Source of the DNA: Arsukibacterium tuosuense
Lineage (GTDB): Bacteria > Pseudomonadota > Gammaproteobacteria > Steroidobacterales > GCA-2729495
DNA length: 38,885 nt
Direction of reading: 5' to 3'
Assembly: GCA_945872065.1 (NCBI GenBank)
Contig: CAMBYH010000013.1
Span: 1 to 38,885, forward strand
Below the pieces are notes generated by a model. That model was not told the origin of the DNA. It was given only the letters and a program-made list of their open reading frames with translations, and made no database searches. A program made the translations under genes and the position numbers. Below, piece by piece: positions 27,392-32,077 of the stretch. How positions within the stretch are numbered: position 1 is the first letter of the stretch; every line of letters starts with the position of its first letter.

Positions 27392-28000
27392 ATGGTTAGG
27401 CAGTCCCGTCAGCAGGGCTTTACGCTGGTCGAAATCGCTATCGTTCTGGTCATTATCAGCCTGCTGATCGGTGGTGTGCTCAAGGGCCAGGAAATGATCA
27501 CCAACGCCAAGGTGAGCAAGGTCGAGAACGACTACAAGGGCATCACCGCCGCGATCCTGGCCTATCAGGACCGCTACGGCGTGCTGCCGGGCGATGACCC
27601 CGGCGCTTCAACCCGCTTCCCCGGCACCTGGACCGCAGCAGACAACGGCAACGGCAACGGTGCCATCGCCGGCGCCTGGAACAGTACGAACAACACGCTG
27701 GAATCCCGCAAGATCTGGAAGCACCTCCGGGGTGCAGGCTTCCTGAAGGGCCCCGTCGACGGCACGGCGGCGTCCTACCAGCAGCCCGCCCATGCTTTCG
27801 GTGGCCTGATCGGCTTTGAGCAGGGCCTGTACAACCTCAGCGGTCACGTGGTTGTCTTCGGGGCTCTGCCCGGCAACGTCACGCAGATCCTCGAGGCCCG
27901 GGGTGACGACGGCAGCCCGAGGGCGGGTTCCGTTCAGGGCAATGCTACTGCCACCACCTACACGCTCAACACCAACTACGACCTGGCCTACTCCTTCTAA
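27392..28000 (+). CDS. Type IV pilin-like protein (prepilin-type N-terminal methylation domain)
   Basis: A 202-residue prepilin. The short basic leader MVRQSRQQG is cut by prepilin peptidase between G and F in QQGFTLVEIAIVLVIISLLI. Phe becomes the N-methylated +1 residue and Glu5 is present. The hydrophobic helix is IAIVLVIISLLIGGVLKGQE. The globular part includes KVENDYKGITAAILAYQDRY, GVLPGDDPGASTRF, an Asn-Gly tract and a beta-rich C-terminus ending in YDLAYSF. The 'GQEMITNAK..K..NDYK.I..AI.AYQDRYG.LPGD' segment is typical of T2SS/T4P-like pseudopilins of the GspG/PulG/FimT style that are encoded alone. No pilus assembly genes are nearby. It has a GAGGAG ribosome site and a strong bidirectional terminator after it. 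Confidence 0.9.
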   Translation: MVRQSRQQGFTLVEIAIVLVIISLLIGGVLKGQEMITNAKVSKVENDYKGITAAILAYQDRYGVLPGDDPGASTRFPGTWTAADNGNGNGAIAGAWNSTNNTLESRKIWKHLRGAGFLKGPVDGTAASYQQPAHAFGGLIGFEQGLYNLSGHVVVFGALPGNVTQILEARGDDGSPRAGSVQGNATATTYTLNTNYDLAYSF

Positions 28001-28020: not shown

Positions 28021-28054
28021 AAACGGGGCGGTGCTGCACAGCACCGCCCCGTTT
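28021..28054. terminator. Bidirectional intrinsic terminator between pilin and DUF5666 genes
   Basis: A 16-bp perfect inverted repeat (AAACGGGGCGGTGCTG and its complement, 28021-28036 and 28039-28054). An A run precedes it and T-rich sequence follows, so it can stop transcripts from both sides. It sits between convergent genes with stops at 28000 and 28067. Confidence 0.93.
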
Positions 28055-28066
28055 GCTTTTCGGGTG

Positions 28067-29563
28067 TCAGTCTTCGATCTCGACCTCTTCTGCCAGGACA
28101 GGCGTGCTCGCCCCCGGGGCAATGTTCAGCAGGAACTTCACCTTGACTTCAGCCCCGGTGGTGACGGCGCCGGCGAAGAAGGCTGCCGCGGCGATCTCAT
28201 TCTCATCCGCATCGAAGAACGTCGTGAAGTCGTCCGTCTCGACCAGCACGCCGAGGATGGTGAAGTCCGGATCGTTGCGCGCACCCAGACTGCCGCGTAG
28301 AAGCCCCTGCGTTTCCTCAGCATCCTGGCGCTCTAACAGCGTGGCGAGGACGGTGTTGGGGCCCTGGGGAATGCCCCGCACTTCCACATAATCCACCCCA
28401 GCCTGCAGGTCGGCCAGGGAGAAGTCGCGCACCTCATCGTCACTCTGGTCCTCGAGCCGCGTGTTGGCATCGACCAGGATAGTGACGCCGAGCACCACGA
28501 ACTGCCCCACCTTGGGATTTCCCGCATTGGGAGTCACGGTATCCACCCGGGCGGCAATGCGCGTATCCTCGTCCGGGCCATCCGCCCCCGTGCGGACCTG
28601 GACCTCGCTCGCCACGATGGCGCCGCTCGCGTTGAACTCACCCTCAACCCGGACTTTCGCGCCCAGCGCGACAGTGCCACCCGTGGCGGCGACGCTGCTC
28701 TGCACCGGCACGCCGGATACCGAGAACGAGCTGGCGCTGGTAAACAGGGTGACGTAACCCTCCACTTCCGCCTCGTCGCCATCCTCACCGATGCGGTCTT
28801 CGCCGTCTTCCAGTTCCACCCGCGTGGCCACCAGCTGACCAGCGCCGTTCACCACGGTGCCCTTGACCTCCACGAAATCGCCATTGTTGATGACGCCGCT
28901 GGGGGCATCGATGATCGTGTTGATAGTCGTCAGCACGACCTGCCCGTTGATAACAAAGGTATTGACGGTGGGGTTCGACACGGTGCCGCGGATCTCGATT
29001 TCGCCACCGGGAACCTTGCGCTCGATACGGGTCGCCCGGACCACGACATTGACCAGTACTCCATCCACCAAAACGTTCTGTTGCAGCAAACCACTCACCT
29101 CGACGACATTGCCGTCCGCCAGGCTGTCGAGGTCGATCAGCGGCGAGGCAAATGAGGTGTCAGCATCGACCAGGACCGTCTGCCCAAGCACCACGAAGGA
29201 CTGGGTGAGCGGATCGATGCTGCCCGCCGTGATCGGTCCCTCGACGCTGTCGTCGTAGAAGACCTCGACGGCACGGCGCGTGACGCCCTCATCCACGCTG
29301 CTCCACTGGACAGTGACCTGCTGGCCTACCTGCAGGTCGGACTGACTGCCAGGAGCGTCGTCGATGTCAAAAGCTGTACCGGTCGTCGAGTACTCCACAC
29401 CGTTGACGAACACGCTGCCAAAGCCGGTGATGGTGCCTGTGGACACGCCCAGGCGATCGATACCAGCGAGATTGGCGCCGCCACCGCCGCCGCAGGCGAC
29501 GACCAGGCCGAGCACCAGGCCAGTAACACCGGCCGCCTGAAGCTTAAGTTTGAAATTCTTCAT
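28067..29563 (-). CDS. DUF5666 lipoprotein, six repeats (downstream copy)
   Basis: A 498-residue predicted lipoprotein. The start is the ATG at 29563 with GAGGAAT just upstream (the frame also has a GTG one codon earlier). The signal peptide ends in the lipobox LVVAC followed by a Gly run (GGGGG). Six DUF5666-type beta-barrel-like repeats follow: STGTITGFGSVFVNGVEYST; EGPITAGSIDPLTQSFVVLG; EIRGTVSNPTVNTFVING; EVEGYVTLFTSASSFSVSG; RIAARVDTVTPNAGNP; and a last one near FTILGVLVETDD. Each carries the OB-fold-like 'G.V......F.V.G..V..d..T.f' and 'G..VEV.G' phrases. DUF5666 function is unknown; the repeats look like small domains on a membrane-anchored chain. It lies 12 bases downstream of the DUF6502 gene and is paralogous to 30539-31990 (483 residues). 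Confidence 0.88.
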   Translation of the reverse strand: MKNFKLKLQAAGVTGLVLGLVVACGGGGGANLAGIDRLGVSTGTITGFGSVFVNGVEYSTTGTAFDIDDAPGSQSDLQVGQQVTVQWSSVDEGVTRRAVEVFYDDSVEGPITAGSIDPLTQSFVVLGQTVLVDADTSFASPLIDLDSLADGNVVEVSGLLQQNVLVDGVLVNVVVRATRIERKVPGGEIEIRGTVSNPTVNTFVINGQVVLTTINTIIDAPSGVINNGDFVEVKGTVVNGAGQLVATRVELEDGEDRIGEDGDEAEVEGYVTLFTSASSFSVSGVPVQSSVAATGGTVALGAKVRVEGEFNASGAIVASEVQVRTGADGPDEDTRIAARVDTVTPNAGNPKVGQFVVLGVTILVDANTRLEDQSDDEVRDFSLADLQAGVDYVEVRGIPQGPNTVLATLLERQDAEETQGLLRGSLGARNDPDFTILGVLVETDDFTTFFDADENEIAAAAFFAGAVTTGAEVKVKFLLNIAPGASTPVLAEEVEIED

Positions 29564-29575
29564 CACGACATTCCT

Positions 29576-30475
29576 CTATTGATCGTCAGCAATCAGAAAC
29601 ATACCCAGACCGAGCCGCGTGCGCTTGCGGGCCCCGCCGCTGGCCGGCCGCGCTTCGTGCTCGGTCAGCCACTTGTCCAACGCCTCGAGAAACTCCTGCC
29701 CGCGCTCCTCGACGAAGGCCTCGAACTCGGGCCTGGCCTCCACGTCGACGCTGTCGCTCGTGGCCCGGCCTATGAAGCGCCGGGCGGCTACCTTTGAAGG
29801 CACCACAGCAGGCAGCGATGGTGCCTCAGCCGCGACATCCAGGTTATGCGTAATACTCGCACCAAGATCGGCCAGGATGCTACCCGCGTTGAGCATCCAC
29901 TGGGGATCGAAGCTCCGGGGCATGAAGTAGCGCCGCTCGGCGCGGAGCGTTCCGTCTTGCAGCACCGTAATTGCCCCGGCCCGCTCCAGCTCCTTGCGCA
30001 TGCTCGTGACGGGCACGTCGCCGCCATAGCGCTGCCAGAGGGTGGTGAAACTGGCCCCGCTGCCCTCAGCGGGCAGCGCCCGGGGCTCGCCGGAGGGCGT
30101 GATGAAATCGGGATCCTGGTGCCAGCCGGACAGTAGCCGGGTGGCGTCGGTCGTCTTGTTTGGCAGCGGCGCAGATTCCTGTTCGAGCAGGGTCCGGACC
30201 CGGGCGATTTCCTTGCGGCTGACACCCGTGAGGATTGACACCCGGGACACGTTGGTGGGCCGGCCGTTCAAGCCGTAGTCCTGGCTGGCCACAGCCACGA
30301 AGACGCTTTTGGAGACGTCGGCGAATTCCCGCCAGGTCATCCCGCACTTCAGCAACAGGCTGGCGATGGGCCGGAGCAGCACGCGGCAGGTCTGGACGAC
30401 CGCGCCTCGATCCAGCGCATTGGCTTGATTTGCTTCCGTTGGCATATCCATCCGGCCGCCAGGGTGAGGACTCAT
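29576..30475 (-). CDS. DUF6502 family protein, probable helix-turn-helix regulator
   Basis: A 299-residue cytosolic protein (ATG at 30475; later ATGs at 30451 and 30445 are possible). The N-terminal 100 residues contain RVLLRPIASLLLKCGMTWRE and then TNVSRVSILTGVSRKEIARV (residues ~74-93). The latter has the spacing of a winged-helix recognition helix, 'SRVS.LTG.SRKEI.R'. A proline-poor middle (SGWHQDPDFITPSGEPRALP) follows, and a second helical part (FEAFVEERGQEFLEALDKWL) ends in a basic patch (GGARKRTRLGLGMFL). This is the layout I know as DUF6502, a family without an established role. The gene is flanked on the same strand by two DUF5666 lipoprotein genes, which suggests it controls them or the envelope process they serve. 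DNA binding is inferred from the helix pattern only. Confidence 0.82.
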   Translation of the reverse strand: MSPHPGGRMDMPTEANQANALDRGAVVQTCRVLLRPIASLLLKCGMTWREFADVSKSVFVAVASQDYGLNGRPTNVSRVSILTGVSRKEIARVRTLLEQESAPLPNKTTDATRLLSGWHQDPDFITPSGEPRALPAEGSGASFTTLWQRYGGDVPVTSMRKELERAGAITVLQDGTLRAERRYFMPRSFDPQWMLNAGSILADLGASITHNLDVAAEAPSLPAVVPSKVAARRFIGRATSDSVDVEARPEFEAFVEERGQEFLEALDKWLTEHEARPASGGARKRTRLGLGMFLIADDQ

Positions 30476-30486
30476 TGTGGCCGATT

Positions 30487-30522
30487 GCGCCCGCCCGACG
30501 CTTGAGACTGCCGGGCGGGCGC
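30487..30522. promoter_or_regulatory. GC-rich hairpin between DUF5666 and DUF6502 genes
   Basis: An 11-bp perfect inverted repeat GCGCCCGCCCG / CGGGCGGGCGC with a 14-base loop, in the 63 bases between the upstream DUF5666 stop (30539) and the DUF6502 start (30475). No T run follows on the minus strand, so it is not a normal terminator; it might attenuate, process or protect the message. Confidence 0.6.
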
Positions 30523-30538
30523 GTTTCCGGCCGACGCG

Positions 30539-31990
30539 TCAGTCGTCCTCGCCCTCCAGCTCCACTTCCTCCGCCCGAATAACCTGGTCGGCGATCAGGT
30601 TGCCCTTGGCCTTGACCAGATCCCCCAGGGTAACGATTGAGAAGAAGGTGGCCGCAGACACGCTGTCCTCGGACCAGTCCTCGAACTCGGTGCCGGCCAC
30701 CGTCTGAACCGTCACGCCGAAAATCTCCAGGTCCGGGGCGGCCACCGCAGTGACGGGGCCCTGGACGGAGCTCTCGTCGTCGTTGTCCTCCCGCTCCAGG
30801 CGCCGGGCGAGCAGCTGGCCGCTGGCGGCGGGGAACTCGGCGCCCCGCACCTCCACGTAGTCGCCTGCCCGGAGGTCAGCCAGGGCGAAGGACTCTACAT
30901 CCGCGTCGCTCTTGTCTTCCAGCCGCGTCAATGCATCCACCTTGACGGTGATACCGAGCACGATCAGCGTGCCGCTGGCAGCATCGACGCTGTCCACGAG
31001 GGAGGTCAGGCGCACGTTGGCGGCGCGCCGGATACTGACTTTCCGGGCCACGAGGACCCCGGCGGCGTCCAGCGGTCCCTCCACTTCAACCTTGAGGTTA
31101 AGGCCGAGATCAGCAGCAGTGCCGTTCTCGTAAACCGTGGTCAGCGTCGTGGTGACGGGTCGGCCGGCGACGTCGAAGTCCGTGACTGAGACGAAGCGGG
31201 TAATGAGACCCTCGATCTCCCGCTTGGCATCCCCATCATCGTTGTCATCATCTGCATCCGGTCCCTCGAACTCGATCTTGGTCGCCTGCAGGGCGCCGCC
31301 CACAAAGGTGGAGCCCTTGGCCTCGACGAAGTCCCCTGCGGTGATCTGGCCACCGGGGAAGTCATCCAGCACTGCGGCGCCATAGTCGATGTTGAGGGCG
31401 TTGATGCGGAAGCGGCGGTTCACCGTGTCCAGGTCAGCAACGACACCGTGGACCTCGACAATGCTGCCCGCGGCCTTCTTCTCGATGCGGGTGGCGCGCA
31501 CAGCGCCCGCCGCGTCAAGGAATCCCGCGACCTCAACGAAGTCGCCAATAACCAGACCGGCGAGGGACGACCCCGGAATGTTGTCATCGAAGGAAGTGTC
31601 CGCGTCTGTAACCACGGACTGGCCGGCGACCACCAGGGTGCCCGCCAGGAGGTTCAGCGCCGTAACGGGCCCCTCGACCGCATCATCGCCAATCACCTCG
31701 GTGGCCGTGCCAGTTCGTCCGTCGTCGTTGACCCGGCCGCGGATCTTCACCACATCGCCCACGGCCAGATCGTCCTGACTCCCCGGCGCATCGTCGACCA
31801 GAAACACGGCCCGGGTGGTTTCGAAGCGCACACCGTTCACATAGACGCTGCCAAAGCCGGTGATCACCCCTGTGCTGACGACGCTGGATCCCGACGCTGT
31901 GGCACCGCTGCCGCCACCCCCGCCACCGCAGCCCGTGAGGAACACAGCCAGTGCAGCGGCAGCCGAAAAGCCTAAATATTTGATTTTCAT
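30539..31990 (-). CDS. DUF5666 lipoprotein, six repeats (upstream copy)
   Basis: A 483-residue predicted lipoprotein. I start at the ATG at 31990 (MKIKYLGFSAAAALAVFLTG), preceded by GGAGA, although the frame is open further upstream. The lipobox is FLTGC followed by a Gly run. Six DUF5666-type repeats follow the same order as in the downstream paralog: VITGFGSVYVNGVRFETTRA; EGPVTALNLLAGTLVVAG; EVHGVVADLDTVNRRFRI; EIEGLITRFVSVTDFDVAG; RLTSLVDSVDAASGTLIVLG; SVQGPVTAVAAPDLEIFG. Acidic residues are frequent, including a D/E tract (GPDADDDNDDGDAKRE) and an acidic end (VELEGEDD). It probably heads an operon with the DUF6502 gene and the second DUF5666 gene. The function is unknown. A pair of palindromes lies just upstream. 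Confidence 0.88.
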   Translation of the reverse strand: MKIKYLGFSAAAALAVFLTGCGGGGGGSGATASGSSVVSTGVITGFGSVYVNGVRFETTRAVFLVDDAPGSQDDLAVGDVVKIRGRVNDDGRTGTATEVIGDDAVEGPVTALNLLAGTLVVAGQSVVTDADTSFDDNIPGSSLAGLVIGDFVEVAGFLDAAGAVRATRIEKKAAGSIVEVHGVVADLDTVNRRFRINALNIDYGAAVLDDFPGGQITAGDFVEAKGSTFVGGALQATKIEFEGPDADDDNDDGDAKREIEGLITRFVSVTDFDVAGRPVTTTLTTVYENGTAADLGLNLKVEVEGPLDAAGVLVARKVSIRRAANVRLTSLVDSVDAASGTLIVLGITVKVDALTRLEDKSDADVESFALADLRAGDYVEVRGAEFPAASGQLLARRLEREDNDDESSVQGPVTAVAAPDLEIFGVTVQTVAGTEFEDWSEDSVSAATFFSIVTLGDLVKAKGNLIADQVIRAEEVELEGEDD

Positions 31991-32007: not shown

Positions 32008-32053
32008 TACTTGCCAATGGGGCTACTTGCCCCAAGTTGGGTAAACTTACCCC
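32008..32053. promoter_or_regulatory. Two GGGG/CCCC palindromes plus CTACTTGCC direct repeats upstream of the DUF5666 operon
   Basis: GGGGCTACTTGCCCC (32019-32033) and GGGTAAACTTACCCC (32039-32053) are similar 15-base dyads with starts 20 bases apart, about two helical turns. CTACTTGCC also occurs as a direct repeat at 32008 and 32023. They sit 18-63 bases before the DUF5666 start codon, where operators or attenuators are expected. Confidence 0.6.
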
Positions 32054-32077
32054 ACTTGAGTTGAGAGTGTCAACCGC

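Follow-up and report, generated by a model that had tools for sequence, protein, structure and literature searches.

The DUF5666–DUF6502–DUF5666 operon

The stretch of DNA analysed here (the window) comprises 38,885 nucleotides (nt) of contig CAMBYH010000013.1 of the gammaproteobacterium Arsukibacterium tuosuense (assembly GCA_945872065.1). On its minus strand, between positions 28067 and 31990, two lipoprotein genes of the DUF5666 family enclose a gene of the DUF6502 family. A preliminary description of this DNA had claimed a three-gene unit on one strand, and the open reading frames (ORFs) and Pfam matches bear this out. In the order of transcription, the genes encode a 483-residue lipoprotein (30539–31990), a 299-residue DUF6502 protein (29576–30475) and a 498-residue lipoprotein (28067–29566, counted from the ATG at 29563). 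Each outer protein contains six stretches matching DUF5666 (PF18914; E-values of 1.8e-42 and 4.9e-61, 143.9 and 203.3 bits against a cut-off of 27) and, on inspection, a signal-peptide-like start followed by a lipobox-like cysteine (VVAC and LTGC). The middle protein matches DUF6502 (PF20112) over residues 26–295 (1.1e-44; 152.7 bits against a cut-off of 27). The downstream lipoprotein carries the hexapeptide GIDRLG at residues 34–39 from the same ATG (29447–29464, minus strand), starting ten residues past the lipid cysteine C24. This is one form of a motif, GIx[GR]xG, that the upstream lipoprotein lacks.

Ahead of the operon, also on the minus strand, a −35-like hexamer TTGACA (32068–32073) is located 18 nt from the hexamer TAAGTT, which lies inside the palindrome GGGTAAGTTTACCC (32039–32052). 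The two hexamers give 9 of 12 consensus matches in all, but the pair is unlisted by the promoter scan because TAAGTT fits TATAAT at only 3 of 6 positions. A second palindrome, GGGGCAAGTAGCCCC, lies at 32019–32033 (minus strand). Behind the operon, a terminator-like hairpin of 15 pairs with a T run occupies 28021–28054 on the same strand; three terminator-like sites were found, compared to 2.3 expected in shuffled sequence, and the stems of the other two are far shorter. With these promoter-like and terminator-like ends, 28067–31990 reads as a single operon.

Exported partners of DUF6502 and their shared motif

The preliminary description suggested that the arrangement may be a self-contained envelope system. 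The pairing of DUF6502 with DUF5666 is conserved across genomes. In a sample of 147 genomes of the order, DUF6502 was found in 99 and DUF5666 in 73. Among the matches listed, DUF6502 was present in 69 of the 73 genomes with DUF5666 and in 30 of the 74 others (odds ratio 25, Fisher 5e-13), so the association is not due to chance, and 53 of 70 distinct DUF5666 genes lie within 4.5 kilobases of a DUF6502 gene. DUF6502 was also detected in 64 of 229 genomes of a class sample and in 15 of 299 of a phylum sample, nine of these 15 lying outside the class of the window. Sixty named loci were retrieved with a query alignment built from six DUF6502 proteins. At 58 of them DUF6502 has a same-strand neighbour with at least three DUF5666 units, which in 54 cases lies directly downstream; this rate overstates the general one, since the query proteins themselves adjoined DUF5666 genes. 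One record, titled as a Klebsiella pneumoniae metagenome-assembled genome and possibly mislabelled (L086), contains a DUF6502–DUF5666 pair with 41% identity to the query.

The suggestion that the two lipoproteins may be partners of each other is not supported as stated. DUF5666 genes flank DUF6502 on both sides at only 9 of the 60 named loci (the downstream copy of L083 is truncated; L082, with two pairs in tandem, is left out of the count), and an obligate lipoprotein pair was rejected on this ground; the two copies, moreover, differ by the DUF6502-linked motif. DUF5666 was likewise rejected as a constant partner, because other DUF6502 clades have exported partners of short repeats or of other domains. 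In these clades the downstream gene often encodes, instead of a six-unit DUF5666 protein, an exported protein with long runs of short repeats (GITGSGVR, AIGGTYEQ, AIDGTDAR, SISGSDNAGL, GIHGSDAL and others), and unrelated exported proteins are found behind DUF6502 at L128, L130, L036, L158, L165 and L167. The genome of the window has a second module of this kind (L042, contig C1, 4857–7408): a DUF6502 gene, an exported protein that ends in four copies of GISGSG and has no DUF5666 match, and a second DUF6502 gene on the other strand. The survey is based on 161 DUF6502 genes, counted without redundancy. For 27 of them no partner was assigned automatically, owing to contig ends, second DUF6502 genes and misjudged starts, and at a few loci an ORF in the wrong frame was taken (L015 and L024, on the other strand; L019; L035). 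At L091 (3–1529) and L157, a protein with GIDEGGTY/H repeats is encoded upstream of DUF6502, not downstream. Tiny lipoproteins of 96 and 120 residues with KIIKNGK or KITGPGK repeats lie behind DUF6502 at L034 (2355–2642) and L041, and are possibly the most reduced ligand-like partners.

Most DUF6502 partners share the motif G-I-x-[G/R]-x-G, with T, S, G or L commonest before the last glycine. Its distribution was assessed with the expression [GA][IVM]x[GR]xG in DUF5666 proteins of at least three units and with non-redundant N-terminal linkers; proteins with fewer units, starts cut by the end of the locus, weak signal peptides or repeated linkers were excluded. The motif is present in 73 of 85 direct downstream partners, compared to 13.6 expected from shuffling the same linkers. 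None of 12 upstream copies carries it, and it is found in 2 of 4 second copies and in 1 of 16 non-adjacent ones (Fisher 3.8e-9 and 8e-10); the sole non-adjacent bearer begins 28 nt from a contig end. Two excluded upstream copies with cut starts (L109, L174) have no motif either. Although valine and methionine are allowed at position 2, isoleucine is found in 72 of 72 partner motifs with full context. Partners carry the motif close to the signal peptide or lipid cysteine, where sister lipoproteins do not have it, and in lipoproteins it follows the cysteine at a median of 13 residues; repeat-protein partners have up to 34 copies, often distant from the N-terminus. In the other exported ORFs of the window and the 60 named loci, the motif is found in 0 of 36 with a lipobox and in 3 of 166 with a signal-peptide-like start.

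The motif also extends to partners of other architecture. Among partners with few or no DUF5666 units (fewer than three), 32 of 47 pass a broader test (the motif within residues 16–130, or at least three copies of a looser form). Partners without any DUF5666 match carry GGIVGTG (L128) and GVIGTG (L130), and a close variant directly follows the signal-peptide-like start of secreted non-DUF5666 partners, AEISGSG at L036 and L165 and AEITGSG at L158 and L167. The motif or a close variant recurs in partners from another class of the phylum (L176, L178–L181 and L183–L185). At L049, it is the second lipoprotein, and not the direct downstream partner, that bears the motif. In several repeat proteins the motif peptide is constant and its codons differ (8 copies, one peptide and 8 DNA versions at L016; 14 copies, one peptide and 11 DNA versions at L014), and codon variation is low elsewhere (one DNA version in 7 copies at L024, two in 17 at L153, four in 34 at L037). 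These patterns indicate that many of the repeat proteins are under selection at the protein level and that others are recent expansions. The partners at L109, L115, L120 and L121 have a variant tag, GGGETGTG, where other partners have GIx[GR]xG.

A tree of 54 lipoprotein rows (32 upstream, second or non-adjacent copies and 22 hand-picked from the 85 downstream ones) places the upstream copies in more than one group and requires at least five switches between the upstream and downstream positions. Three to five independent phylogenetic contrasts have the motif downstream only, and none the reverse. In a DUF6502 tree built from the 108 of 138 representatives that had a partner label, partner type requires 14 changes compared to 34.8 in shuffles; regulator and partner type are therefore inherited together.

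A HetR-like fold and a recurring operator

The middle protein had been described as putatively DNA-binding, and its AlphaFold model (mean predicted local distance difference test score, pLDDT, 86.5) agrees with this, showing a predicted helix-turn-helix (HTH; residues ∼48–98), a winged domain (∼143–179) and a C-terminal hood-like part. HetR, which with PatX controls cell pattern in filamentous cyanobacteria, consists of DNA-binding, flap and hood domains, the hood being an intertwined dimer. Four HetR chains are the best Foldseek matches of the model in the PDB (4j00_A with an E-value of 5.7e-5 and a probability of 1.00, the other three with 2.1e-3 to 2.6e-3), and the best non-HetR match has an E-value of 0.17. 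With a second structural aligner, six HetR entries lead with Z-scores of 7.1–10.4 over 217–236 residues, although values below ∼13 in mostly helical models may reflect a common arrangement only; the remaining 44 rows among the matches listed align 48–86 residues, mostly HTH. The window model thus shows the three-domain arrangement of HetR (HTH DNA-binding domain, flap and hood) over its full length. The resemblance is weaker in a divergent member, L176, which is 25% identical to the window protein and was modeled with part of its partner: HetR chains take ranks 1–3 with the second aligner (Z-scores of 7.0–7.8 over 211–218 residues, root-mean-square deviation, rmsd, of ∼11 Å), and a fourth stands at rank 5 (Z-score of 6.0), with HetR alignments spanning 205–218 residues overall. 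We refer to a HetR-like fold, and not to the HetR family, because sequence comparison gives common descent no support; the kinship is one of modeled fold.

The preliminary description had pointed to palindromes at 32019–32053. These are real and belong to a class of operator that recurs in promoters upstream of DUF6502 operons, of which 149 non-redundant examples were collected (starts were set by rule, so that operator distances are approximate). The form present in the window, [GT]GGGWN6WCCC[AC], of GGG-N8-CCC class, occurs in 31 of 149 promoters compared to 10 of 6020 control windows of equal length from the same loci and to 0.43% of shuffles. The strict form TGGGWN6WCCCA, which excludes the window site since it has G and not T before GGG, occurs in 24 of 149 compared to 5 of 6020. 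Taken generally, inverted repeats in these promoters exceed those of shuffles in strength (p 6e-14) and, by a modest margin, those of random windows drawn from the loci (p 0.0015), and related palindromes can be recognized by eye in Cellvibrio records (TTGGTA...TACCAA) and in other clades (ATTTGTG...CACAAAT). At 21 of 32 sites, compared to 10.1 expected, a −10-like hexamer inside the palindrome is paired with a preceding −35-like one, which points to repression. A genome scan with GGGTAN4TACCC yielded no wider regulon: the genome holds one other such site, inside an ORF read as pirin-like, and this is also one of its six TGGGWN6WCCCA sites. Given the conserved pairing, the modeled HTH and winged domains and the recurrence of the operator, DUF6502 is likely to be the operon's own regulator, as had been proposed.

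A possible HetR/PatX-like module in Proteobacteria

HetR is controlled by RG[S/T]GR peptides. Receptors of the RRNPP group (Rap, Rgg, PlcR), which are tetratricopeptide repeat (TPR) proteins of Gram-positive bacteria, similarly couple an exported precursor to a cytoplasmic DNA-binding receptor encoded beside it; no RRNPP-type TPR fold is among the structural matches listed for the window model. PMC4192349 and PMC4649674 describe a GGG-N5-CCC site as required by HetR, and the latter also describes PatS6 as adding a strand to the hood domain of HetR, with release of DNA. PatX, according to PMC12756182, is exported by Sec and cut by PatP to HRGTGR, which binds HetR; the survey in question covered 474 genomes, all cyanobacterial. 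The likeness to HetR, PatX, PatS and HetN lies in a regulator of ∼300 residues with a full-length, in-order fold match to HetR, in GGG/CCC half-sites within the promoters, and in an exported protein, linked to the regulator, that bears a short glycine-rich motif. The differences lie in the motif, which is GIx[GR]xG in one to dozens of copies; in its carrier, which is a lipoprotein or a repeat protein whose gene immediately follows that of the regulator; in the hosts, which are gammaproteobacterial records and another class of the phylum; and in the lack of detectable sequence homology to HetR. DUF5666 lipoproteins unlinked to DUF6502 have the same repeat domain, and most have a signal peptide and lipobox, but the motif is missing in 15 of the 16 non-adjacent copies examined.

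The compared sequences give the layout of the operon, its pairing, the position of the motif near the signal peptide or lipid cysteine, and the operator in part of the promoters. From these we infer DNA binding, repression, recognition of the motif and a route for the peptide, and we consider it somewhat probable that the operon joins an autoregulated transcription factor, DUF6502, to an exported partner whose tag it would read, in the manner of HetR and PatX. A DUF6502 dimer would bind the operator and repress its own operon, as may be expected because the palindrome covers the −10 region. The motif peptide would bind the C-terminal hood-like domain and alter DNA binding, either after cleavage from the exported partner and re-entry into the cytoplasm, as with PatX peptides, or while still part of a precursor awaiting export. 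Expression of the operon would then be set by how much envelope lipoprotein there is, by what becomes of it, or by neighbours that produce it. The upstream lipoprotein, a diverged paralogue without the tag, would be a product of the system and not a signal.

Several observations, beyond the caution on Z-scores above, weigh against such a module. The L176 model retrieves HetR first with Foldseek at an E-value of only 0.15, and the HetR alignments have an rmsd of 6–12 Å. Neither Pfam models nor hhalign detect homology between DUF6502 and HetR: the Pfam models of HetR (Peptidase_S48, HetR_C) match HetR and not the window DUF6502 at an E-value of 1, and the DUF6502 model misses HetR. An hhalign comparison yielded P 0.32 with 31 sequences and, in an alignment collinear across most of the two proteins, 0.05 with 138. 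In a control run HetR scored 17.4, a value reached by 22 of 179 ORFs unrelated to it and by 5 of 60 HetR sequences after shuffling. No further HetR relatives were found with which to deepen the HetR profile, and a sequence search of DUF6502 against solved structures gave nothing convincing. In the single-chain model of the L176 DUF6502 with the N-terminus of its own partner, the five motifs are disordered (pLDDT 26–31), which speaks neither for nor against binding, as the hood of HetR is a dimer and the model a single chain. The palindromes are spaced by N8, compared to N5 for HetR, and 79 of the 149 promoters fit neither of two broad palindrome patterns. The partners have a signal-peptide-like start, but their motif differs from RG[ST]GR, with the arginines mostly missing. 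It is absent from 12 of the 85 multi-DUF5666 partners, most of which show near variants (AGIDARG, AGIDAGG, DISGSG and ETGTG, the last in four), and 15 of the 47 partners with fewer than three units fail the broader test; among the failures are ORFs picked in the wrong frame, AIGGT[RYN] repeats and EI[ST]GSG variants. The phylogenetic contrasts are too few to reach significance (p 0.06–0.25). The motif and operator expressions were chosen after viewing the sequences, the motif controls sharing the same expression.

The missing arginines of the PatS and PatX peptides and the lack of docking in the single-chain model would also suit an ordinary autorepressor that senses something else, with a motif that DUF6502 never meets and that serves in the envelope for tethering, as a signal for sorting or surface export, or for recognition by a protease or partner. 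Its location just past the lipid cysteine is where sorting and tether signals sit. A general sorting signal would not be expected, however, to track an intracellular DNA-binding protein, and here sister DUF5666 lipoproteins that are not paired with DUF6502 lack the motif (0 of 12 and 1 of 16), whereas partners of other architecture share it or a variant; we regard such a separation of motif and regulator as rather unlikely. That the genes merely travel together in an operon, with the likeness of motifs and operators reflecting common descent and no functional link, is less likely still, and we give it little weight. The agreement of partner type with DUF6502 clades would be expected from such co-travel, but on the lipoprotein tree upstream copies are interspersed with downstream ones, every contrast showing a difference has the motif in the downstream copy, and the motif or a variant outlasts replacement of the rest of the partner.

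Within the proposed reading of a partner's tag by DUF6502, the peptide need not leave the cell and return. DUF6502 could instead read the motif on the cytoplasmic precursor before export and so monitor export capacity, which would fit a lipoprotein motif close behind the signal peptide, translated early, and DUF6502 and partner genes that are adjacent or overlapping. The up to 34 copies in short-repeat partners, often far from the N-terminus, are better suited to the release of many peptides, and the precedent of PatX favours an exported and processed source; we consider sensing of the precursor unlikely.

A literature search, mostly without subscription papers and without bioRxiv preprints, returned no paper on DUF6502, no match for GIGGTG, and motif-string matches that appear unrelated judging by their titles; titles and the beginnings of abstracts revealed no HetR relative outside cyanobacteria, and the passages that mention DUF5666 do not treat its function. 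DUF6502 and DUF5666, whose function has hitherto lacked a description, gain a joint and testable role, with the short motif as the predicted ligand of a regulator found in many Gammaproteobacteria and, beyond them, in one or more further classes of the phylum. Tentatively, DUF6502 could represent a proteobacterial branch of an ancient HetR-type family, its exported partners being PatX-like precursors, and peptide feedback of this kind could be widespread, with cyanobacterial patterning as one specialised case. If so, the logic of HetR and PatX, a textbook bacterial Turing-type system, would be older and wider than multicellular cyanobacteria and open to study in simpler hosts.

As for the remaining features, the DUF5666 units gave nothing convincing in a sequence search against solved structures, and one lipoprotein has a weak hint of an OB-fold (E-value of 0.0085, below the Pfam cut-off). 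Concerning defence, PADLOC, applied to two of the three operon proteins, returned no match for DUF6502 or the upstream lipoprotein. A prepilin-like protein (N_methyl motif, Pfam) is encoded on the plus strand at 27392–28000 of the window and converges on the end of the operon.

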